Positions 794 through 46,470 of a stretch of 49,099 bases of DNA are shown here, in pieces. A program made the translations under genes and the position numbers. Origin of the DNA: Clostridiales bacterium (lineage in GTDB: Bacteria; Bacillota; Clostridia; Christensenellales; Borkfalkiaceae); NCBI GenBank assembly GCA_015055545.1, contig SVHY01000013.1:1-49099 (forward strand), written 5' to 3'. Each line of letters starts with the position of its first letter. Positions within the stretch are counted from its first letter, which is position 1. The notes beneath the pieces are model-generated. The model saw only the letters and a program-made list of their open reading frames with translations, was not told the origin of the DNA and did not search any database.

Positions 794-812
794 GCTTATT
801 GCGTTAAAAATT

Positions 813-963
813 CGCTCTGACGAGCGATTGACCGCTTGCGCGGTAAAAACGCAAAACTGCGTTTTGCTTAATTGGGGCTTGCTTTGCCCTTACGGGCAAC
901 TGCTGCCACAGGGGCTTTAAGGCTCTGCCTTAAAAATCCGCAAGGAACTATGTTCCTTGACCT
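813..963 (+). repeat. Modular hairpin element, family A, copy 1
   Basis: Fills the gap between the rRNA terminator and the next gene. Three hairpins in order: CGCTC-tgac-GAGCG (813-826), CCGC-ttgc-GCGG (832-843), GCAAAAC-tgc-GTTTTGC (851-867), then ATTGGGGCTTG. More small hairpins follow, ending with AAGGAAC-tat-GTTCCTT. The same architecture, with different but still paired stems, recurs near 10600, 10671, 21991, 22062, 25554, 25630 and 46349. Confidence 0.8.
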
Positions 964-966
964 TAA

Positions 967-10278: not shown

Positions 10279-10332
10279 AGTATATCATGTTTTAAGATAG
10301 TTGTACAAATTTATTTTAAAATGTTATATAAT
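10279..10332. promoter_or_regulatory. Divergent promoters sharing palindrome TTGTACAA
   Basis: The palindrome TTGTACAA at 10301-10308 supplies the -35 box for both directions. Minus: TTGTAC, 18 bases, TATACT (10279-10284). Plus: TTGTAC, 18 bases, TATATA (10325-10330), or TATAAT at 10327-10332 with a longer spacer. A repressor on this one site would block both promoters; the HTH protein at 10352 is the natural candidate. Confidence 0.6.
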
Positions 10333-10351
10333 ATACGCAAGGAAGATAAAG

Positions 10352-10549
10352 ATGAAGATAGGGAAACGCTTACGGGAAGAAATGAAATTACAGGGTATAA
10401 CGCAAAGGGGGCTTGCGATGAGGTTGTGGATATCACAACCGACGGTTTCACAGTGGGTGACGGGGGTAAACGAACCGAGCTGTGAAATGATTGTGAAGAT
10501 TTGCAAAGTATTGGACATTACGCCAAACGAGTTGTTTGATTGGGAATAA
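10352..10549 (+). CDS. Small XRE-family (Cro/C1-type) HTH regulator
   Basis: 65 aa from ATG 10352, chosen for its AAGGA site and because the protein then begins exactly at the HTH domain (MKIGKRLREEMKLQGI). Seen: the five-helix Cro/C1 fold, with TQRGLAMRLWISQPTVSQWV as the HTH and the usual EPSCEMIVKICKVLDITPNELF end. There is no effector domain. Expected to dimerise on an operator, probably the TTGTACAA palindrome upstream. Confidence 0.88.
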   Translation: MKIGKRLREEMKLQGITQRGLAMRLWISQPTVSQWVTGVNEPSCEMIVKICKVLDITPNELFDWE

Positions 10550-10581: not shown

Positions 10582-10599
10582 GTGTTTGGGGGATAGTTT

Positions 10600-10797
10600 C
10601 GCTCTGACGAGCGATTGACCGCTACGCGGTAGGGGCGCAACCTACGGTTGCTTTACTTGGGGGTAAAGTTTTGCCCTGTCGGGCAATTGACCGCCAAAGG
10701 CGGTGAAAAGCGCAAAGCAAAGCTTTGCTTAACTGGGGCTTGTTATGCGGGGTTTCACCCCTGCACCCCACAAGGGACTGTGTCCCTTGACCCTTTT
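10600..10797 (+). repeat. Modular hairpin element, family A, copies 2 and 3
   Basis: Two elements in tandem. Copy 2: CGCTC-tgac-GAGCG, CCGC-tac-GCGG, GCAACC-tac-GGTTGC, then TTACTTGGGG. Copy 3: TTGCCC-tgtc-GGGCAA, CCGCC-aaa-GGCGG, GCAAAGC-aaa-GCTTTGC, then AACTGGGGCTTG. Copy 3 continues with a GCGGGG...CCCCTGC hairpin and AAGGGAC-tgt-GTCCCTT (about 10772-10788). The last part is nearly the same as the sequence at 46408-46467. It ends at the stop codon of the convergent trpB gene. Confidence 0.85.
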
Positions 10798-12165
10798 TTA
10801 AAATTTTGGCAGCTTTGCGAGTGCTTTTTCGATTTCTGCATCCGTCGGGATATAATCGGTCATTTTGCCGTCGTGGAATTTTTCGTACGACATCATATCA
10901 AAATAACCCGTGCCCGTTAAACCGAATACAATCGTCTTTTCTTCGCCCGTTTCTTTGCATTTGAGCGCCTCGTCTATCGCAACCTTGATCGCGTGCGAGC
11001 TTTCGGGTGCGGGCAATATACCCTCAATCCGCGCAAAGTATTCCGCCGCCTCAAACACCGACGTTTGCGTAACCGAACGCGCTTCCATTAATCCCTCGTC
11101 GTAGAGCTGGGAAAGCGTGCTCGTCATGCCGTGGTATCTAAGTCCGCCAGCGTGGCTTGCCGCGGGGATAAAGCCCGAGCCGAGCGTGTACATCTTTTGC
11201 AAGGGACAGACCATGCCCGTGTCGCAATAGTCGTACGCGTATTTCCCGCGCGTGAGCGTGGGACAGGACGCGGGTTCGACCGCGATAAACTTGCAGTCCG
11301 ATTTACCCTGTAATTTTTCCGCCATAAAAGGGGCTATCAAGCCGCCAAGGTTAGAACCGCCGCCCGCGCAACCGATGACGATATCCGCTTTTTCGCCGTA
11401 TTTATCAAGCGCCGTTTTCGTTTCTAAACCGATGACCGATTGGTGTAACAGGACTTGATTGAGAACGCTGCCTAATACGTAGCGATAGCCTTCCAAGCCC
11501 GTCGCCGCTTCTACCGCTTCGGAAATGGCACAGCCTAAACTTCCGTTCGTGCCCGGGAATTCTTCCAAAATCTTTCTGCCGACCGCCGTCGTCGTGGACG
11601 GAGAGGGGGTAACGGATGCGCCGTAGGTGCGCATGACTTCACGCCGAAACGGTTTTTGTTCGTACGAGCATTTTACCATATACACTTTGCAGTCCAAGCC
11701 AAAGTACGAACACGCCATAGACAAAGCCGTGCCCCATTGACCTGCGCCCGTTTCCGTCGTAACGCCTTTCAAGCCCTGTTCTTTCGCATAATACGCTTGC
11801 GCAATCGCTGAGTTGAGCTTGTGGCTTCCGCTCGTGTTATTGCCTTCAAACTTATAATAAATCTTCGCGGGCGTGCCCAGCTTTTTCTCCAAGCAATACG
11901 CGCGGATTAAGGGTGCGGGACGGTACATTTTATAAAAATCGCGTATCTCCGTCGGGATATCGATATATTCCGTCGTGTCGTCTAATTCCTGTTTTACAAG
12001 CTCTTCACAAAACACCTGCGAGAGTTCGTCTTTCGTCATAGGCGCTTTGGTTTCGGGGTTTAAAAGGGGCGCGGGCTTGTTTTTCATAAACGCGCGCAAA
12101 TTGATCCATGCCTTGGGCAGTTCGTTTTCGCTTAAATAAATTTTGTAAGGGATTTCTTGTTTCAT
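10798..12165 (-). CDS. trpB: Tryptophan synthase beta-like protein, TrpB2 type
   Basis: 455 aa, AAGGAG before the ATG. A PLP enzyme with the Schiff-base lysine in GSHKLNSA (Lys116), the ETGAGQWG motif and the phosphate-binding GCAGGGSN loop. The N-terminal extension and length match TrpB2, the form that lacks the TrpA-contacting features of TrpB1 and often stands alone; it can join serine and indole. No other trp gene is nearby. The upstream Trp T-box shows it is induced when charged tRNA-Trp is scarce, so it serves tryptophan supply, perhaps by salvaging indole in the gut. Confidence 0.95.
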   Translation of the reverse strand: MKQEIPYKIYLSENELPKAWINLRAFMKNKPAPLLNPETKAPMTKDELSQVFCEELVKQELDDTTEYIDIPTEIRDFYKMYRPAPLIRAYCLEKKLGTPAKIYYKFEGNNTSGSHKLNSAIAQAYYAKEQGLKGVTTETGAGQWGTALSMACSYFGLDCKVYMVKCSYEQKPFRREVMRTYGASVTPSPSTTTAVGRKILEEFPGTNGSLGCAISEAVEAATGLEGYRYVLGSVLNQVLLHQSVIGLETKTALDKYGEKADIVIGCAGGGSNLGGLIAPFMAEKLQGKSDCKFIAVEPASCPTLTRGKYAYDYCDTGMVCPLQKMYTLGSGFIPAASHAGGLRYHGMTSTLSQLYDEGLMEARSVTQTSVFEAAEYFARIEGILPAPESSHAIKVAIDEALKCKETGEEKTIVFGLTGTGYFDMMSYEKFHDGKMTDYIPTDAEIEKALAKLPKF

Positions 12166-12186: not shown

Positions 12187-12460
12187 ATAAAAAACCCGAA
12201 AAACGGAATTGTTCCGCTTTTCGGGACGATATTTTCAATACCGCGGTGCCACCCGTGTTGACTTTTTAAAAAGCCCGCTTTTTATGCGTACTATCATACG
12301 CTCCGTGCGATTACGGGCACGCCCCGTCGATTGCTACTTGCGTGTTTCACGCGTTCGTTCGCCCTCATAAGTCCATTCCCCAAAGCGTTCCGCATTGCAA
12401 TTCCACCGCCTGCAACTCTCTTTGCCGTTCTACAAAGGGTACTATTCTTAATCATAGGTT
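12187..12460 (-). promoter_or_regulatory. T-box leader with Trp (UGG) specifier
   Basis: Read on the minus strand. The T-box core TGGCACCGCGG is at 12251-12241. The specifier region reads GGGGAATGGACTTATG, giving codon UGG at 12375-12373 in the usual GAA-NNN-A context. The intrinsic terminator is CCCGAAAAACGGAA / TTCCGCTTTTCGGG at 12225-12195 followed by a T run. T-boxes bind uncharged tRNA, which favours the antiterminator and switches the gene on. The 5' limit of the leader is approximate. Confidence 0.93.
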
Positions 12461-12480
12461 TGTTTTTATATTGTGCTTAT

Positions 12481-17424: not shown

Positions 17425-17632
17425 TCAATGAATTGCAAGCAGAGCTTGCGTGAATTGAAATGTTCAATTTCATGAATTGCGCCTGCGGCGCGTGAATTGC
17501 AAAGCAGAGCTTTGCATTGTGGTAAATTTTACAATAATGACGGCGAAGCCGTCAATTCACGAACGCGTAGCGTTCATTTCACGGCGTTAGCCAATTCATG
17601 AAAAGCAAAGCTTTTCAATTCATTTTTTAAAA
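17425..17632 (+). repeat. Family B mini-hairpin array upstream of prfA
   Basis: About 200 bases made almost entirely of mini-hairpins with short, mostly 3-base, loops separated by TGAATT/AATTCA words: GCAAGC-aga-GCTTGC, GCGCC-tgc-GGCGC, GCAAAGC-aga-GCTTTGC, GACGGC-gaa-GCCGTC, GAACGC-gta-GCGTTC, GAAAAGC-aaa-GCTTTTC and others. No coding potential. A related array, with the same hairpin order in part, is at 25703-25790. It ends five bases before the prfA start codon. Confidence 0.85.
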
Positions 17633-17636
17633 TCGT

Positions 17637-18707
17637 ATGTTAAAGAAATTAGAAACCATTAAAAATCGATACGCGGTTTTATCCGAGCGGCTCGCTGACG
17701 TAGAAACGCTTTCGGATACGGCGACTTGGCAAAAATATTCCAAGGAACAAGCCGAGCTTATGGAAACCGTGGAAAAATACGACGAGTATCTCGCTACCGA
17801 GCAGGATATGAACGATTCGTTCGCGCTTGCGGAAACGGAAACGGACGGCGAAATGAAAAAAATGCTGCTTGCCGAGGGGTACGCGTGTAAGGAAAAGCTT
17901 GCCCAGCTTTTTGTCGAGCTTAAAATTTTGCTCTTGCCCAAGGACAAGAACGACGAGCGAAGTTGTATCTTGGAAGTACGCGCGGGCACGGGCGGCGAAG
18001 AGGCGGCACTGTTTGCGGGCGAACTTTGCAGAATGTATCAAAACTATTGCGCGGCGCACCGTTTGCGCGTGGAAGAAATCGAAATCAATGCTACCGAACT
18101 TGGCGGGGTAAAGGAAGCGATTTATTCCGTTACGGGCACGGGCGCGTATAAATTATTGAAATACGAAAGTGGCGTGCACCGCGTGCAACGCGTACCGGCT
18201 ACGGAAACGCAGGGACGTATTCACACGTCCGCGGCGACGGTTGCCGTTCTTCCCGAAGCGGAAGAAGTAGAAGTGGAAATTTCCGATAAGGATATCCGTA
18301 TCGACATTTTCCATTCGGGTGGCGCGGGCGGTCAAAACGTCAACAAGGTTGCTTCTGCCGTACGGATTACGCATTTTCCGACGGGTATCGTCGTAACCTG
18401 CCAAGACGAGCGTTCGCAGCTGAAAAACAAAGAACGCGCGTTTAAGGTTTTACGTTCCCGCTTGTACGATTTTTATAACGGTCAGAGCGCAAAAGCGCGG
18501 GAAGAAAACCGCCGTAGCATGGTTGGTACGGGGGATAGGAGCGAACGGATTCGGACATACAATTTTCCGCAAAGCCGTGTAACCGATCATCGGATAGGGC
18601 TTAGTCAATATAACTTAGACGCGTTTATGACAGGCGATATCGACAGTATGGTTGAGGCACTTGCCGTTGCGGATAGAGAGGCTTTAATCGCATCACAGGA
18701 GAGTTGA
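17637..18707 (+). CDS. prfA: Peptide chain release factor 1
   Basis: 356 aa. Seen: the catalytic GGQ at 231-233 inside SGGAGGQNVNK, and the PAT tripeptide at 187-189 that reads UAA/UAG and distinguishes RF1 from RF2. Full family length. It follows its modifying enzyme PrmC. Odd point: the bases just before the ATG (ATTTTTTAAAATCGT) contain no Shine-Dalgarno sequence, and the upstream 200 bases are a hairpin array, so translation initiation or transcript supply may be unusual. Confidence 0.97.
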   Translation: MLKKLETIKNRYAVLSERLADVETLSDTATWQKYSKEQAELMETVEKYDEYLATEQDMNDSFALAETETDGEMKKMLLAEGYACKEKLAQLFVELKILLLPKDKNDERSCILEVRAGTGGEEAALFAGELCRMYQNYCAAHRLRVEEIEINATELGGVKEAIYSVTGTGAYKLLKYESGVHRVQRVPATETQGRIHTSAATVAVLPEAEEVEVEISDKDIRIDIFHSGGAGGQNVNKVASAVRITHFPTGIVVTCQDERSQLKNKERAFKVLRSRLYDFYNGQSAKAREENRRSMVGTGDRSERIRTYNFPQSRVTDHRIGLSQYNLDAFMTGDIDSMVEALAVADREALIASQES

Positions 18708-19980: not shown

Positions 19981-20002
19981 AATCTTTTTTTTGGAGGTTT
20001 TT

Positions 20003-21214
20003 ATGAAAAAAGCGAAAAAATTTTTAGTAGGCTTGCTTGCAATTTTAAGCGTTAGCGCGTTTGCGTGGGGGGTGACGGGTTGCGATGATGATGAACAAAG
20101 TGCGCCGTCAACACCGCAAACGCAAGAATGTGTACATACTTTTAGCGATTGGGAGTACTATACGGCAAATGATTATTGTGAAGAAAAATTATATTTTCGT
20201 ATTTGTGAAAAATGCAATGAAGTAGAGAGTAAAAAAGGTACTGCGGACGACCATGTTTTTGAAACATATTGTTGTGATTATAAAACGCATTGGAAACAAT
20301 GCAACAACTGTCAGCGTATTGTAGAAACAGGTGAACACATAATAAATGCCGAGCATTATTGTACTGTATGCGGTGAATTGGTAGGAACAGATGGGTTAAT
20401 TTTTGACGTTTCTAACGGTGTATCGGCGACGGTTTTTGGATATACAGGAGCTGATGCTAATGTTGTTATTCCAGCGTGGTATAATGGATTACTGGTAACG
20501 ACAATCGATGAAGATGTGTTCTATGATTGCGACGGATTGACAAACGTAACGATACCCGACAGTGTAACGATGATTGGAAGTAGTGCGTTCTATGATTGCG
20601 ACGGATTGACAAACGTAACGATACCCGACAGTGTAACGATGATTGGAAGTAGTGCGTTCTATGGTTGCGATAGTTTGACAAGCGTATATTATGCGGGCGA
20701 TATTGCAAGTTGGTGCGCGATAGATTTTGCCGAGGGAGGAGCAAATCCTTTATTATCTAGAGCGGATTTCTATATTAGTAATGAAAAAGTTGTCGATTTG
20801 GTTATTCCTGACGGGGTAAAAATAATAAGAAATCGTGCATTTTGCGGTGCAAATTTTAAAACGATTATAATCTCTGATTCTGTAAAGGACATTGAAAGAA
20901 GTGCGTTCGCTAATTGCGACAGTTTGACAAGCGTAACGATACCCGATTTAGTAACGACGATTGGGGAGTGGGCGTTCTATTCTTGCGATAATTTGACAAA
21001 CGTGACGATAGGTAATTCGGTGACTACGATTGAAAGTAATGCGTTCTATGATTGCGAGAATTTAACAAGCGTAGTATTTGCTGATACTTCCACTTGGTAT
21101 TATACCGATAATTACGAAGATTGGCAAAACAAGGTAAACGGTACGCAAGTGGACGTAAGCGACCCTGCAAGGGCGGCGGATTTGTTGAGATATTCGTATT
21201 GGTATAAATTATAA
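20003..21214 (+). CDS. BspA-like leucine-rich-repeat lipoprotein
   Basis: 403 aa from ATG 20003 with GGAGGT upstream. Seen: a signal peptide ending in lipobox VTGC (Cys near residue 27); a Cys-rich stretch (about 40-130) with CEKC, CNNC and CTVC pairs that look like zinc-ribbon knuckles; then BspA/LRR_5 repeats of about 23 residues of the form FYDCDGLTNVTIPDSV. Two neighbouring repeats are identical in DNA. BspA-like proteins sit on the cell surface and often mediate adhesion. It is transcribed from the operator-bearing promoter and followed 18 bases later by an unknown gene. Confidence 0.9.
   Translation: MKKAKKFLVGLLAILSVSAFAWGVTGCDDDEQSAPSTPQTQECVHTFSDWEYYTANDYCEEKLYFRICEKCNEVESKKGTADDHVFETYCCDYKTHWKQCNNCQRIVETGEHIINAEHYCTVCGELVGTDGLIFDVSNGVSATVFGYTGADANVVIPAWYNGLLVTTIDEDVFYDCDGLTNVTIPDSVTMIGSSAFYDCDGLTNVTIPDSVTMIGSSAFYGCDSLTSVYYAGDIASWCAIDFAEGGANPLLSRADFYISNEKVVDLVIPDGVKIIRNRAFCGANFKTIIISDSVKDIERSAFANCDSLTSVTIPDLVTTIGEWAFYSCDNLTNVTIGNSVTTIESNAFYDCENLTSVVFADTSTWYYTDNYEDWQNKVNGTQVDVSDPARAADLLRYSYWYKL
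20519..20656 (+). repeat. Exact 69-bp tandem duplication inside the LRR gene
   Basis: 20519-20587 and 20588-20656 are identical over 69 bases (23 codons, one LRR unit). The next unit, from 20657, diverges within a few bases. The identity at synonymous sites shows the copy is recent. Confidence 0.93.
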
Positions 21215-21922: not shown

Positions 21923-22178
21923 AATGCATAATGCATAATTGTGGAAATATTTCAATTTCTATTATCTATTCAATTTTATCTATTATCTACGCGCCATAGC
22001 GCGTGTACCGCTTGCGCGGTGGGGCGCAAAACTGCGTTTTGCTTACTTTGGGCTAAAAATTCGCCTAACGGCGATTGACCGCCAAGGGCGGTAAGAACGC
22101 AACCTACGGTTGCTTTATTTGGGGGTTAATTTGCGGGGCTTTGCCCCACGCCCCACCAGAAACTAAGTTTCTGGACTT
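21923..22178 (+). repeat. Family A copies 4 and 5, with TGCATAAT and TCTATT repeats
   Basis: The whole 21875-22251 gap is non-coding. 21923-21942 has TAATGCATAATGCATAATTG; 21955-21990 has AT-rich TATTATCTATT words. Copy 4: GCGC-cata-GCGC, CCGC-ttgc-GCGG, GCAAAAC-tgc-GTTTTGC (21991-22042). Copy 5: CGCC-taac-GGCG, CCGCC-aag-GGCGG, GCAACC-tac-GGTTGC (22062-22113). The tail has GCGGGGC...GCCCC and CAGAAAC-taa-GTTTCTG. Ends just before the prmA promoter. Confidence 0.85.
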
Positions 22179-22199
22179 CTAGTTGGTGGGCGATTTTTC

Positions 22200-25525: not shown

Positions 25526-25551
25526 TGCAGAATGACAAAAGAGGCGTTTAT

Positions 25552-25793
25552 CTACACGCCATAGCGTGTGTACCGCTTTCGCGATGAAGAACGCAAAACA
25601 AAGTTTTGCTTATAAATGGGCTATGTTCTGCTCTAACGAGCGATTGACCGCCTGTGGCGGTGAGAACGCAACCTGCGGTTGCTTGCTTGGGAGAGAGTAA
25701 TGAATTGCAAACAGTGCTTGCATAAATTGAAATTGTAATTTCATGAATTTTCGCTAACGCTTAATGAATTGACAACTTTGTTGTCATTATGGT
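25552..25793 (+). repeat. Family A copies 6 and 7 plus a family B array
   Basis: Non-coding gap 25526-25930. Copy 6: ACACGC-cata-GCGTGT, a decayed CCGC stem, GCAAAAC-aaa-GTTTTGC (25554-25609). Copy 7: GCTC-taac-GAGC, CCGCC-tgt-GGCGG, GCAACC-tgc-GGTTGC (25630-25682). Then family B from about 25703: GCAAACAGTGCTTGC, GAAATTGTAATTTC and GACAAC-ttt-GTTGTC separated by TGAATT words, ending ATTATGGTAATATTT, like the ATTGTGGTAAATTTT at 17515-17530. Confidence 0.85.
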
Positions 25794-32379: not shown

Positions 32380-33695
32380 GAAAAATCTATAAAAAACTTT
32401 CTCTGTTCGCACTCGGCGTTTTATGTTGCGCTACTTGCGTTAGCGGCGGATTGTTTTCCGCACACACGGAAGCGGAAACGACGCTCAGTACAGTGGACAT
32501 AGAAGAAGAATACACAATCGGCGAAACGGTAACCGTGCCAGACGCAACCATTACGGTGGACGGGACGGCGTATGAAGCGACGAAAACACTCGTGTATCCC
32601 AACGGCAACACCGCCGCAGTAGACAGCGCGGTTATGCGGATGAGCGGCGAATATCAAATCGTCTACAAAGCTATGGTTGACGGAAAATTATACGAAGAAA
32701 CGGTTACCTTTTTGGTGCTGACGGACAGATATTCCGTAAGTAGTGAAAATTCTTCCGTGAAGTATGGCACGAATTCGTATTTAGGCGATATGCAAGGTTT
32801 GAATTTGACTTTGGCGCAGGGCGATACGTTTACTTATAACCGCGTTATCAATCTTAACGAAGTAACGCAAGCGGAAGAACTTATCCGTTTTTATTATACG
32901 CCGGCGGTAAAAGGCGAAGGGGAAGTAAATCAAACGTATATCGTATTGACGGATATCTACAACCCCGATAACTTCGTGCGCGTACAATACAATTCGCGTA
33001 TTCACGATATCGGTTATGCGTGGGATAGACTGTTTATCAGTGCGGGTGCAAACGGTCAAGACTTAAAGGGTATGGAATATTCGCCCAAAAACGGTTCGTT
33101 AGAATATGAAGGCAATATATATAAACTGCACGTCAATAACTTTTTCGGTATGGCGTCGCAATCGTCTTGGACGGGGGAATTGACGCACATTCACGAAACG
33201 TTTGCGGAGAATTACAATTATCTTCAATTCGATTATGCCGCGCGGAAATTATACGCACACCCGTATAATTTTTATAAATCCAGAAATATGATTGTTGATT
33301 TAGACGAACCGCTTTTGTATGGCGACAATTTATGGCAAGGGTTTACGACGGGCGAAGTGATTATGTCGATTCATTGCGAAAACTACGCCTCCACCGAAGC
33401 GAATTTCTTCATTTCCGATATTATCGACGGGGAATTGGCGGAAACGCCGTTTAAAGACGAGGTTGCTCCCGATATCGTTTTGGATATGCAGGATTATTCG
33501 GAAACAGACTTGCCGAAGGCGTATATCAACAAACCCTATCGTGTATTTGACGCAACAGCCTATGACAACTTAGAAGGCGTTAAGCAAGTGGAAGTGAATG
33601 TATATTATAACTACCACGGTTCGGGTAGAAGTTTAGTGCAAATCACGGACGGTGTGTTTACGCCTAAACGCACGGGTGAGTATACCATTGTATGA
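32376..33695 (+). CDS. Secreted surface protein, 5' part of a frameshift-split gene
   Basis: 439 aa, AGGAGG upstream and a four-base overlap with the permease gene. Seen: signal peptide (about residues 1-33), an Ig-like N-terminal domain, a large beta-rich domain (about 110-350) that looks like a lectin/laminin-G-type jelly roll (YSVSSENSSVKYG...), then a second Ig-like domain ending abruptly at GEYTIV. In such domains YTA-type residues normally follow, but a TGA stop is met here. The reading frame resumes at once in another frame (next entry). Probably a glycan-binding or transporter-accessory surface protein of the sialic-acid operon. Confidence 0.8.
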   Translation: MRKIYKKLSLFALGVLCCATCVSGGLFSAHTEAETTLSTVDIEEEYTIGETVTVPDATITVDGTAYEATKTLVYPNGNTAAVDSAVMRMSGEYQIVYKAMVDGKLYEETVTFLVLTDRYSVSSENSSVKYGTNSYLGDMQGLNLTLAQGDTFTYNRVINLNEVTQAEELIRFYYTPAVKGEGEVNQTYIVLTDIYNPDNFVRVQYNSRIHDIGYAWDRLFISAGANGQDLKGMEYSPKNGSLEYEGNIYKLHVNNFFGMASQSSWTGELTHIHETFAENYNYLQFDYAARKLYAHPYNFYKSRNMIVDLDEPLLYGDNLWQGFTTGEVIMSIHCENYASTEANFFISDIIDGELAETPFKDEVAPDIVLDMQDYSETDLPKAYINKPYRVFDATAYDNLEGVKQVEVNVYYNYHGSGRSLVQITDGVFTPKRTGEYTIV

Positions 33696-36042
33696 TACGA
33701 TTGACGAAGCGATTGCAGAGCTGAATTGTTCGTTTACGCTTAATCTTTCCGACGCTACGGCAAATATGCTTGCTATGGAAGAAAAGACGTTGACGGCAAC
33801 CTATAAAAACGGCGATACGGATACGGGCTTGGATTTGGCGTTTAAGTGGACGAGCGACGATGAAAGCGTAGTAAAAGTGGAAAACGGCAAACTGTTTGCA
33901 ACGGGTGCAGGCGAAGCGACGGTTAGCGTCAGCGTACTCGGTCAAACGCAAAACTGTACGGTAAGCGTAACGGACGAACGCCAAGTGCAAACGCTTGACG
34001 CAGTCGATTACGATTTGTCCGTTGGCGGCAATTTAGCAATCACGGGCTTAAGCGGTACGGCGCAAACGGCGTACGTAACGGCAGTAAAAGGCGAGGAACG
34101 CGTTGAACTTCCCGCAACCTTAAACGGCGATACCGTTACGGTTGCCGAAACCGACGTAAAAGCACTTTCCACCGGCGTATGGACGTTTACCGTAAACACC
34201 AGTGCAACCACCGCCACGGTAGAAGTAACGGTTGCGACGTACGTTGTTTCCAATTATTCGGAATTTATGACGTTTTATAACGGAATGAATGCTGATGACG
34301 GTGCAAGCTCAGGTAACTATTACGTAGTACTCGACGCTAATATTGACGGCGATGCAGGTAAGGGAACGGCAAACGGAGCGGCAGATGATCATTCTATACT
34401 TACTTCGGGTAGATTTGTTGACTATAATGGCGTATTAGACGGTAGAGGTCATACGATTAACAATTTGTGGGTAAACAGAAGATTGTTTGAAACGCTATCG
34501 GGGACGATTAAGAATATATCCTTCGTTAATTACAAACAAAGAGTTGTAAATACAAGCAATGGTATCGGTGCATTCGTTGCACGCGGAACGGGTACGATCG
34601 AAAACGTTTATTTTAGCGCGACGTTTGATAACGCGGCAGGAAACGCGAAAACTTATTGTCTTATTGAAGACGATAGCTTGACGATTAAAAATATGCTTGT
34701 AAACGTTACTTATACGACGGCTAATCCTGCATACGTATTTTGTGGTACGGAAGGTGGAGCATTCAATGTCGATGTGACAAAGTTTGCGGCAGATGATATT
34801 TACGTGATCGCAAACACCACGGTTGCAGACGGCAAGGTATATTTGTATTTAGAAGGTGAAAAAGTTGATGGGACGTATACATATACGAATGGACCTGAAA
34901 TTACTTGTACGACGGTAGACGCGTTGGTTGATGCGAAAAATGCAAACGGCGATATGTTCAACAGTGCAAACGGTTGGTCTGACGTTTGGGAATTGAAAGC
35001 GGACGGTATTTATTTCGGCGGCGTGAGAGTAGAAACGCGTACGGCGAAGAAACTCGGCGTTGGCGCATACGATTACGATTTGTCTGTTGGTGGTGCATTG
35101 ACGGTGGAAAATCTTCCCACAAACGTAACGCAAGCGTTTATTACGAAAGGCACTCAAACGGTTGATTTAACGAATAAAGTAAGCGGCACGACGCTCACCG
35201 TAGACGAAACGGCGATGCAAGGTTTGGCAACAGGCGTATGGTCGCTCACGGTAATGACGGCAAGTGATGCTTACACCGCGGAAGTAACGGTTGCAACCTA
35301 CGTCATTTCCGACGATGCGACGTTGAAAACCTTTCAAACTAATTTGCCAAACACCAAAACTGATACAACGACGGTGAATTGGTACGTTGTTCTTTCGGAC
35401 AACTTTACTGCATCTACTACATGGGAAGGTCGGCATTTAGTGTTCTGTGGCGTTTTAGACGGTCGCGGACATATTATCGATGGCTTGACGGTAAGTAGAA
35501 GATTTTTAGGGTTCTTGAACGGCGGCACGATTAAAAATATAGGTTTCACGAACTATAAAAACAGTACGCAAGTAAATAGTGCTAATGATATTGCTTGCTA
35601 TTTTGTAAACAATACGACGAGTATGGGAACGATTTCCAACGTATATATGCAAGTGACGGACAGCTTTAACGCGTCGCTCGTAGGTTCTACGAATATCGCG
35701 GTGGATAACGTAGTGTTAGACGTTACGCATACGACGGATTCGAAGCTTACGAATGTTCCGTCGTACACGCAATCGTATACAGTATACAACGGCAGCACTT
35801 CTAAATATACGACGGACGATATTTACGTTATTGCAACGACGACGGTAGACGGCGCGACGGTTTCGTTTAGCAAAGACTATACGACGGACGGCAACGGCGT
35901 ATACGCAAGCGCGGGCGCGTTGGTTGATGCGAAAAATGCAAACGGCGATATGTTCAGCAGTGCAAGCGGCTGGTCTGACGTTTGGGAATTGAAAGCGGAC
36001 GGCGTTTACTTCGGTGGAGAAAAGGTTGAAAGTTTAAGCTAA
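33652..36042 (+). CDS. 3' part of the split surface protein: Big_2 domain and two Ig/beta-helix modules
   Basis: Open for 796 codons with no signal peptide and no ribosome-binding site at its GTG, and it overlaps the end of the previous frame; most likely the rest of the same gene displaced by an indel near 33695. Seen: a Big_2-like domain (about 15-110, TSDDESVVKVENGKLFATG), then two copies of a module of about 330 residues: YDYDLSVGG Ig-like part, VATYV linker, a GLUG-like right-handed beta-helix part with GVLDGRGHTI, IKNI and IENV strands, DDIYVIA, and DAKNANGDMF...GWSDVWELKADG. The module recurs once in the lipoprotein at 36160. No cell-wall anchor is visible at the C-terminus. Confidence 0.75.
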   Translation: MCLRLNARVSIPLYDTIDEAIAELNCSFTLNLSDATANMLAMEEKTLTATYKNGDTDTGLDLAFKWTSDDESVVKVENGKLFATGAGEATVSVSVLGQTQNCTVSVTDERQVQTLDAVDYDLSVGGNLAITGLSGTAQTAYVTAVKGEERVELPATLNGDTVTVAETDVKALSTGVWTFTVNTSATTATVEVTVATYVVSNYSEFMTFYNGMNADDGASSGNYYVVLDANIDGDAGKGTANGAADDHSILTSGRFVDYNGVLDGRGHTINNLWVNRRLFETLSGTIKNISFVNYKQRVVNTSNGIGAFVARGTGTIENVYFSATFDNAAGNAKTYCLIEDDSLTIKNMLVNVTYTTANPAYVFCGTEGGAFNVDVTKFAADDIYVIANTTVADGKVYLYLEGEKVDGTYTYTNGPEITCTTVDALVDAKNANGDMFNSANGWSDVWELKADGIYFGGVRVETRTAKKLGVGAYDYDLSVGGALTVENLPTNVTQAFITKGTQTVDLTNKVSGTTLTVDETAMQGLATGVWSLTVMTASDAYTAEVTVATYVISDDATLKTFQTNLPNTKTDTTTVNWYVVLSDNFTASTTWEGRHLVFCGVLDGRGHIIDGLTVSRRFLGFLNGGTIKNIGFTNYKNSTQVNSANDIACYFVNNTTSMGTISNVYMQVTDSFNASLVGSTNIAVDNVVLDVTHTTDSKLTNVPSYTQSYTVYNGSTSKYTTDDIYVIATTTVDGATVSFSKDYTTDGNGVYASAGALVDAKNANGDMFSSASGWSDVWELKADGVYFGGEKVESLS
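34921..35007 (+). repeat. Near-identical direct repeat, module end, copy 1
   Basis: Encodes ALVDAKNANGDMF and the GWSDVWELKADG region. It matches 35917-36003 at all but a few bases over about 87 bases, 996 bases (332 codons) apart, in the same frame. Recombination between the two would remove exactly one module. Confidence 0.85.
35917..36003 (+). repeat. Near-identical direct repeat, module end, copy 2
   Basis: Second copy of the repeat at 34921-35007. The two modules are much less alike elsewhere, so this end has been copied or corrected recently. Confidence 0.85.
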
Positions 36043-36054
36043 AAAATTAAGAAG

Positions 36055-36134
36055 TCATTCTGGAATGGAGCGTAGCGAAATGATAGAATCTCATAAATAT
36101 ACAGATGGGATTTTATCGCTACGCTCCCGAATGA
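36055..36134. repeat. Imperfect long palindrome (family C) after the surface-protein gene
   Basis: Outer arms TCATTC / GAATGA, inner perfect 12-bp arms GGAGCGTAGCGA (36067-36078) / TCGCTACGCTCC (36116-36127), and a partly paired GAATCTCAT / ATGGGATT in the loop. It resembles the widespread GTCATTCTGAG...AGAATCTC type of palindromic intergenic repeat, from memory. Only one copy in the window; not related to families A or B. Confidence 0.8.
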
Positions 36135-36159
36135 CGACGTATTGGATAAAGGATTTTTT

Positions 36160-37296
36160 ATGAAAAAAATAGGTTTAACGGTGTTGTTGGCAAGTATACT
36201 GGCAACGGGGTTGTTGGTTGCTTGCGAATCGGGTACGGGCAACGCGAACAATAACAATAATAACGTTGGGAACAACGACGATACGCTCACGTTTATTGAA
36301 AAGGCGGATTACGATTTATCCGACGAAGAGGCAGGAGTATTGTTGCTTGGCAGAGTAGAGGGCGACGTGCAAAGTATTATTGCCGTCAAAGGCGATGAGA
36401 GCAAAAATATTACGCGAAACGCGAGTAAAAAGGACGGCGAACTTGCCGTTGATAAAGAGCTTATGCAAGGGTTATCGGCAGGCGTTTGGACGTTTACCGT
36501 AACTACGGATGAAACGACGTACGTTTCGGAAGTTACCGTCGCGACGTATATTTTATCCGATTATTACGAATTTAGAGATTTTCATACGGCAACCAAAAAC
36601 GGTGCAACGGCAACGGCGGATTGGTACGTGTTATTAGACGGAGATATTAACGCGTCGGATAGCGCGACGGGCAGTCGAATGTTAGGCAACGGGAAGTGGT
36701 GTTCTTTCAACGGTGTGTTCGACGGCAGGGGGCATACAATCTCGAATTTGCAAGCCAACCGATATTTGTTCCGTTACGTAAACGGGACGATTCAAAACGT
36801 AGCGTTTACGGATTATACGCAATACGGTACGTTGCATGAAGAGTATGCGTGTTTTGTAGAACAAGGCACGGGTACGATCAAAAACGTTTATTTTCAAGCG
36901 AGCGTTCCTGAAGATTCGTTTGTGGCGTTTACAGGTTTGAAAATTGAAAACGTGGTATTGGATATGACGTATACAGGGGCTACGCCTACGCACGTATTAT
37001 TCGGTGGCGACGAAAGCAATTTAATGATGGCAGACAACGCGCTTTCCCCTGCGTATACTTCGGATAATATTTACGTAATCGCGAAATCGCAAGTGGAAAA
37101 CGGCGAAGTGTATTTCAGTCGGTTATACCGTGAAACAAACGGCTCGTATTTTGCGGTTCATTCCCAAGAAGAAGTATATTTAAGCAGTAAAATGCTTGTC
37201 AATCGCAGAAATCAAGACGGGAAAATGTTTGACGGAAGTAAAGGTTGGTCTAAGTACTGGAACATAGTTGACGGCGACGTGGCGTTTGGGAAATAA
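36160..37296 (+). CDS. Lipoprotein with one Ig/beta-helix module
   Basis: 378 aa from ATG 36160, with AAAGGA upstream. Seen: signal peptide with lipobox LVAC (Cys about residue 22), an Asn-rich linker, and one full copy of the module in the preceding gene: ADYDLSDEEAG, SAGVWTFTV, EVTVATYILSD, GVFDGRGHTISNL, GTGTIKNVYF, DNIYVIAKS, and NQDGKMFDGSKGWSKYWN. The same order of elements shows common ancestry with both modules of the split gene. Membrane-anchored outside the cell; probably works with the sialic-acid importer or a surface glycan. No catalytic residues recognised. Confidence 0.82.
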   Translation: MKKIGLTVLLASILATGLLVACESGTGNANNNNNNVGNNDDTLTFIEKADYDLSDEEAGVLLLGRVEGDVQSIIAVKGDESKNITRNASKKDGELAVDKELMQGLSAGVWTFTVTTDETTYVSEVTVATYILSDYYEFRDFHTATKNGATATADWYVLLDGDINASDSATGSRMLGNGKWCSFNGVFDGRGHTISNLQANRYLFRYVNGTIQNVAFTDYTQYGTLHEEYACFVEQGTGTIKNVYFQASVPEDSFVAFTGLKIENVVLDMTYTGATPTHVLFGGDESNLMMADNALSPAYTSDNIYVIAKSQVENGEVYFSRLYRETNGSYFAVHSQEEVYLSSKMLVNRRNQDGKMFDGSKGWSKYWNIVDGDVAFGK

Positions 37297-46319: not shown

Positions 46320-46470
46320 ATGAAATGCAAACTGTGTTTGCGTGTCTATACGCAATAGCGTAATAACCGCTTTGCGGTGAAGCGCAACCTACGGTTGCTT
46401 TACTTGGGGCTTATTATGCGGGGTTTCACCCCTGCACCCCACAAGGGACTTTGTCCCTTGACCCTTTCTG
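46320..46470 (+). repeat. Modular hairpin element, family A, copy 8
   Basis: Begins with a family-B-like TGAAATGCAAACTGTGTTTGC, then TACGC-aata-GCGTA, CCGC-ttt-GCGG, GCAACC-tac-GGTTGC, TTACTTGGGGCTTATTATG, a GCGGGG...CCCCTGC hairpin and AAGGGAC-ttt-GTCCCTT. The last 60 bases are nearly identical to 10735-10797. It lies between two genes transcribed the same way. Confidence 0.85.

Follow-up and report, generated by a model that had tools for sequence, protein, structure and literature searches.

The family of small hairpin repeats described here comes from a genus of gut Clostridia that have not been cultured. It is an insertion between genes, as shown by orthologous junctions that are filled in one genome and empty in others. 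We consider it probable that the family represents a modular, non-autonomous insertion element that is BOX-like in its grammar and kept able to fold. What we see would then be copies of a small non-coding modular element inserted between genes in either orientation. The stems of the repeat vary yet remain paired, its copies lie within one bacterial genus, and filled and empty sites can be compared. The family makes it testable whether covariation in bacterial repeats stems from a function as RNA or from the requirements of moving as a single strand. A further lesson is that mobile DNA can turn up in covariation screens that look for new RNAs in gut metagenomes.

The genome examined is that of Clostridiales bacterium GCA_015055545.1 (1.95 Mb, 59 contigs, 83% complete). 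By the window we mean the whole stretch of DNA that was analysed, 49,099 bp in length (contig SVHY01000013.1, positions 1-49,099, forward strand). Two covariance models were used. R1 was built from seven copies of type A (see below), two of these taken from the window, and was restricted to this type because MAFFT misplaced stems in a model of mixed H1 types. R2 is broader and was built from eight equal-length units, with A6 left out. Unit counts per genome are lower bounds in the R1 and R2 searches alike. Genes were called with a heuristic, crude caller, which near 10600 missed an 82-aa HTH-like open frame (10301-10549), and gene context was tallied per element, not per unit.

Architecture of the elements

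A sequence-only reading of the window had listed eight units of three hairpins. All eight are in the sequence where it placed them, and R1 recovers each of them (E 4.3e-7 or better). The units group into five elements that share one orientation inside the window. A unit comprises about 71 nt in the order H1-H2-H3-TTGGGGCT, the last part being a TTGGGG-type linker; one to five units stand in a row and are then usually followed by two further hairpins, H4 and H5. H1 occurs as type A (TCTA-TACGC-CATA-GCGTA and variants) or type B (TTCGCTC-TAAC-GAGCGATTG and variants). H2 is ACCGC(C)/(G)GCGGT and H3 is GCAA..TTGC with a changing inner part. Examples of H4 are GCGGGG-TTTC-ACCCCTGC or AAAGGC-TCT-GCCTTT, and H5 takes the forms AAGGGAC-nnn-GTCCCTT-GA-CCC or CAGAAAC-nnn-GTTTCTG-GA-CTTC. 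The elements of the window are the following.

812..964, plus strand: element A, one unit (H1 type B, H2, H3), H4-type hairpins and H5 (AAGGAAC..GTTCCTTGACCTT)
10597..10793, plus strand: element B, two units with H4 and H5, nearly all of the span 10600..10797 noted earlier
10597..10665, plus strand: element B, unit 1, H1 type B
10669..10742, plus strand: element B, unit 2, H1 type B (TTGCCC/GGGCAA)
10772..10793, plus strand: element B, H5 with its co-varying tail (AAGGGAC-TGT-GTCCCTT-GA-CCC)
21986..22179, plus strand: element C, type A unit, type B unit, H4 and H5 (CAGAAAC..GTTTCTG-GA-CTTC)
25551..25697, plus strand: element D, two units, type A then type B
46345..46464, plus strand: element E, one unit (type A H1), H4 and H5, between a DUF5685 gene and a DnaJ-domain gene

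H4 and H5, which the earlier reading had left out, are present in four of the five window elements. The span 10600..10797 had been read as units, and two units are indeed there, but they belong to one element (10597-10793) with two further hairpins. Stem 1 at 21991, given before as GCGC/GCGC, is in reality longer and reads ACGCGC/GCGCGT around a CATA loop. In elements C and D a type A unit comes first and a type B unit second, and both units of element B are of type B. Element A comes after the 5S rRNA (637-751); at about 788-811 a leftover of a preceding unit can be seen by eye. No H4 or H5 was seen in element D, which continues into hairpin material of a second family.

Most elements hold a single unit. 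The 37 elements of the own genome divide into 33 single and 4 double ones, and the 97 elements of relatives into 82 single, 8 double, 6 triple and 1 quadruple. The longest tandem is a five-unit array in genome G023 (L373) with units at about 71 bp. The region of element B (10597-10795, two units) has a z of -4.83 when folded as RNA, and that of element E (46343-46466, one unit) a z of -7.05 when folded as single-stranded DNA. Rfam returned three matches at gathering score in the window, none of them over the elements, and two weak matches in eight loci searched at E <= 1, both off the elements. A T-box leader (RF00230, 102.7 bits) lies at 12219-12464 on the minus strand, upstream of a minus-strand gene for a PLP-dependent enzyme (10798-12165).

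Several other repeats and variants were noted. Copies at L075:3003-3145, L092:2966-3089 and L077 near 2260 show by eye about 50-70 extra nt between H2 and H3; they share a TTTTTCTAACG..GTGTC..TTTTA-like piece, perhaps another optional module. Near a contig end, at L071:6065-6326, two units that are almost identical and share their 5' flank stand 195 bp apart, which looks as if the whole element had been duplicated in tandem. Four overlapping copies of a 123-nt repeat, spaced 69, 318 and 69 nt from start to start, occupy window positions 20494-21072, all inside the open frame 19991-21214. Diverged internal repeats (D3, D4, D11 and parts of D5 and D9) occur at 33652-37296 in the plus-strand frames 33652-36042 and 36142-37296.

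Distribution, orthologous junctions and gene context

A covariance-model search for further copies, the check proposed with the earlier reading, found many of them genome-wide and in relatives. A loose exact pattern matches 40 times in the 1.95-Mb genome and not at all in a reversed control, some of the matches (e.g. L011 and L036) resembling chance by eye. Both R1 (E <= 1e-4) and R2 (E <= 1e-5) give 42 matches, so that the own genome holds about 40-42 units. These lie in both orientations; the single orientation described earlier is thus true within the window and fails genome-wide. Of 37 genomes of the genus, the own one among them, 18 have R1 matches; none of 24 genomes from other families of the order has any. 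With R2, 25 of 57 genomes of the genus are positive, with 1 to 44 units each and at least 346 summed. One genome (G025) has one weak match with R1 and none with R2; the high-copy species are G029, G000, G073, G023 and G024. In a scan of named species at least 110 stretches fit the pattern, and among the 80 loci listed most belong to unrelated phyla; the latter are in our view probably chance matches. Scanning 22 Clostridia-type loci with R1 (E <= 1e-4) gave 13 matches, all from the four gut MAGs RGIG4039, RGIG8495, RGIG5268 and E10 bin181, and 9 loci that do not match. As to carriage by phages, eight IMG/VR contigs fit the loose pattern, and R2 matches none of the eight at E <= 0.001. Searches confined to open PubMed Central text brought up no description of the element.

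Three junctions that hold an element were compared at 30 loci each (own included), drawn from 55, 57 and 55 matching genomes. Between the DUF5685 and DnaJ genes the gap is 182 bp here, where it holds element E, and 21-86 bp in 29 of 29 other loci; absence of the element from these relatives (30 loci of 55 matching genomes) is read from the gap lengths. The trmFO-hslV gap is likewise 182 bp here and at most 39 bp in 27 of 29 others, the remaining two having 89 bp and 244 bp. R2 detects no unit in the 29 loci of relatives (30 of 57 matching genomes), and the locus with the 244-bp gap holds a different hairpin array. At the junction of relA/spoT with an MBL-fold hydrolase gene there is one sense unit here, one antisense unit in G012 and five antisense units in G023, with no R2 match in the remaining 27 loci (30 of 55 matching genomes), two of which (L361, L376) show H5-like pieces by eye. 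This junction carries separate, independent insertions in opposite orientations. The earlier proposal of a mobile or non-autonomous repeat finds support in the filled and empty orthologous junctions, the independent insertions and the patchy copy number.

The ends of the insertion are less sharply defined. At trmFO the inserted stretch seems to supply the stop codon, inside a short hairpin-like piece 5' of H1, and therefore the 5' end of the element is uncertain by about 45 bp. With this uncertainty, neither a target duplication nor a terminal inverted repeat is seen at the ends by eye. Identity to the nearest relative is 69% in one protein, so that no recent insertion could be dated.

The second family of hairpin arrays lies at window positions 17427-17640 and also at L088, L081:4401-4462, L080:13308-13365 and L076:9266-9324. 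Its stems differ (GCAAAGC/GCTTTGC, GACGGC/GCCGTC, GAACGC/GCGTTC etc.) and its linkers are near-constant: TGAATT precedes and AATTCA follows a central ATTGTGGTAAATTTTACAATAATG-like stretch. In G022 such an array occupies the trmFO-hslV junction.

With few exceptions the copies follow the end of at least one gene, and both orientations occur. The earlier statement that they always lie 3' of a plus-strand gene is correct for four of the five window elements; the first follows the 5S rRNA, and contexts in the genome are mixed. Among the 37 own elements 14 are sense and 11 antisense to co-directional genes, 8 are convergent, 1 is divergent and 3 lie at an edge. The 97 elements of relatives comprise 19 sense, 42 antisense, 17 convergent, 3 divergent and 16 edge cases. 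Of the classified elements, 1 of 34 in the own genome and 3 of 81 in relatives thus lie at divergent junctions, compared with a background (window and C19) of 24 of 165 adjacent gene pairs, or 13 of 67 among gaps of at least 100 bp. Divergent, that is promoter, junctions are avoided, and the orientation towards genes is mixed. The lean of the co-directional elements of relatives towards antisense (42 vs 19) is not expected of an orientation-blind element.

Avoidance of divergent junctions would also fit sites for a host protein or for DNA topology, as hypothesised for REPs, that were spread by recombination and then selected. Many dispersed copies would suit such sites, and either orientation would serve. 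However, the copy number runs from none found (32 of 57 genomes) up to 44, unlike that of an essential site, and we hold this explanation to be decidedly unlikely. Since the sequence of H1 changes freely, it is unlikely that H1 is read by its double-strand sequence; a reader that recognises structure, or the fixed parts of H3, is possible.

Pairing of the stems

The earlier observation that both arms of a stem change together holds; the effect exceeds that in shuffles and is clearest in H1. In 120 units of relatives, standard pairs fill 98.7% of 1942 cells, compared with 77.6% in shuffles. The covariation score is 0.453 (0.102 shuffled; slid controls at most 0.058), and two-sided changes occur at 13 of 17 pairs. 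The 41 own units (40 distinct) are paired in 99.1% of 650 cells with a score of 0.287, compared with 0.076 shuffled; here two-sided changes are limited to 6 of 17 pairs, five of which belong to H1, and 19 of 500 shuffles reach 6. These pairing figures are inflated because the units were found by, and aligned to (A8, A9), a model that holds the structure. Shared ancestry had been named beforehand as the expectation to surpass; the covariation beats the shuffles, which ignore kinship among the units and leave shared ancestry in. The arms change freely in H1 and in part in H2 and inner H3 with complementarity retained, and the outer GCAA/TTGC of H3 is nearly fixed.

Closely similar units differ mainly outside the stems. 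In unit pairs at least 88% alike, paired positions differ by 1.8% (own) and 1.9% (relatives) and unpaired positions by 16% and 17%; at 80% the values are 4.9% and 3.1% for paired and 26% and 28% for unpaired positions. The five units of the G023 array have by eye identical stems, with differences confined to loops and linkers. We suggest that copying or movement of the element requires it to fold as a single strand, and that this requirement preserves the pairing. Each active lineage would carry perfect hairpins and seed many young copies, and young copies alone would also appear well paired.

It has to be considered whether the units are instead a conserved structured RNA, transcribed at gene ends, whose hairpins stabilise, process or terminate the transcript. 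The covariation in own and relatives' units, the low folding energy as RNA (z -4.83) and the location of copies behind genes are consistent with this. Distinct stems one pair apart show 25 double transitions, 34 double transversions, 24 single G-T, 10 A-C and 7 other changes. The excess of G-T over A-C among these single-step variants (24 vs 10) also agrees with an RNA; it is weak and suggests that the written strand folds, as DNA or as RNA. However, interior stem cells, with the outermost pairs excluded, hold 2100 Watson-Crick, 19 G-T, 10 A-C and 14 other combinations (n=2143). G-T thus makes up 0.9%, or 1.7% when outermost pairs are counted (44 of 2592 for all 17 pairs, 21 of the 44 at the outermost H1 pair of relatives). 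Because G-T is this rare, the evidence for a conserved RNA is weak. The mixed orientation (14 sense and 11 antisense own elements, 19 and 42 in relatives), the share of transversions among double changes between single-step neighbours (34 of 59) and the lack of the element at orthologous junctions in relatives speak against it as well, and a structured RNA is in our view rather unlikely. Mixed orientation and rare G-T also leave an mRNA 3'-end stabiliser, as the reason for the element to exist, without support; the hairpins could still act so in either orientation.

Pairing might alternatively be upheld by mutation and not by selection. In quasi-palindrome correction, one arm of a hairpin is rewritten from the other by template switching. 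Such a process would account for stems that are nearly mismatch-free and for the common C-G to G-C flips without a wobble intermediate, as at H1 pair 6/32, which in relatives is GC in 78 units and CG in 37 with no one-sided change. It leaves unexplained the fixed order of modules, the conserved outer GCAA/TTGC of H3, the register between tail and arm described below and the multiplication to new sites. We find this explanation very unlikely, and a modular insertion element kept able to fold stays the reading that we prefer.

Known repeat systems and the tail of H5

The BOX elements of Streptococcus pneumoniae are portrayed, in the part of the source cited here, as modular with a repeatable middle module, intergenic and predicted to fold; they are thought to have spread through the chromosome, are clustered with other repeats and have terminal inverted repeats similar to ISSpn2 (PMC3049150). 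Our family, compared with BOX by this description only, has the same kind of modular order with a repeatable middle module, and is likewise intergenic and predicted to fold, has probably spread through the genome and is located near other repeats. Unlike BOX, it has no terminal inverted repeats by eye (the 5' end being uncertain by about 45 bp), its H1 and partly its H2 and inner H3 vary with pairing kept, and its end hairpin has a co-varying tail. REP/BIME sequences with their RAYT (TnpA-REP) are, in the cited sections, palindromic, extragenic, multi-copy and possibly moved as single-stranded DNA (PMC3733652, PMC8266576). As far as these sections describe them, the likeness extends to palindromic structure, extragenic location, multiple copies and possibly movement as single-stranded DNA. 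In contrast, the printed copies show by eye no constant GTAG or CGTC tag beside H1-H5, several different hairpins stand in a fixed order per element, and no Y1 transposase is linked. With MITEs the family shares short, non-coding, multi-copy and highly base-paired inserts. The terminal inverted repeats and target duplications given as MITE features in the cited part of one source (PMC3049150) were not seen by eye at the insertion points, which are placed approximately. The family works like BOX or REP-type repeats, but we refrain from assigning it to either group.

Searches for a mobilising gene gave no partner. The IS200-type transposase domain PF01797 was not found in the own genome (83% complete), and it is not linked to carriage, being present in 10 of the 25 carriers and in 11 of the 32 non-carriers. 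No PF07282 was found in any of 23 genomes of the genus, with 6 of 14 controls positive and the own genome 83% complete; PF04986 gave no match, but its control was silent as well, so that this search carries no weight. For an IS200/IS605-derived element a TnpA or TnpB partner in the genome would be expected; neither PF01797 (own genome) nor PF07282 (23 genomes) was found. The folded strand might be DNA that is handled by an enzyme supplied in trans.

A clue to such an enzyme may lie in the H5 tail. From 130 units with TT after H3, 82 distinct H5 copies were obtained, the first tail base being C by design of the search. In these 82 copies the three tail bases, set in parallel against arm bases 3-5, are complementary to them at 95% of positions. 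For the 19 distinct arm-tail combinations the parallel match is 0.877, compared with 0.667 when permuted, and none of 5000 permutations is as good. The parallel register one base further along is weaker (75 of 5000 as good) and that one base back gives nothing (1315 of 5000). The pyrimidine tail of H5 co-varies with its purine arm in parallel register. An ordinary antiparallel stem finds no support (613 of 5000 permutations as good). By eye, H4 tails also seem to follow their arms. In the predicted fold the H4 tail could pair with the TTGGGG linker; 55 of 64 pair, compared with 53 in shuffles (38 of 200 as good), and covariation lends this pairing no support.

Going by the sequence, we read the arm-tail rule as a putative recognition signal. 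The purine arm of H5 with its matching pyrimidine tail may serve as a terminal signal for recognition or cleavage. Two ideas for its basis are a short R-Y-Y triplex and a guide and cleavage pairing like that described for IS200/IS605 in the cited part of PMC8266576. A bolder version of the mobile reading, to which we give only a small chance, is that the element might move as folded single-stranded DNA by means of an enzyme class new to such repeats. Its right end would then be read by a third-strand code, in which three tail bases are the parallel complement of three bases within the neighbouring hairpin arm, resembling the guide and cleavage pairing of IS200/IS605 but built into the stem. 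Should the parallel rule be confirmed, it would offer a concrete lead to the enzyme.

Among 390 other genomes of the class sample, two also contain the exact H5 motif and tail, namely G236 (4 copies) and G240 (2 copies), which belong to other families. Each of the four G236 copies (L307, L310, L312, L314) has GCAATTTTTTGAAAAAAATTGA within two bases after H5 and tail. In the two G240 copies (L306, L309) the H5 motif comes after a second hairpin of the same design.
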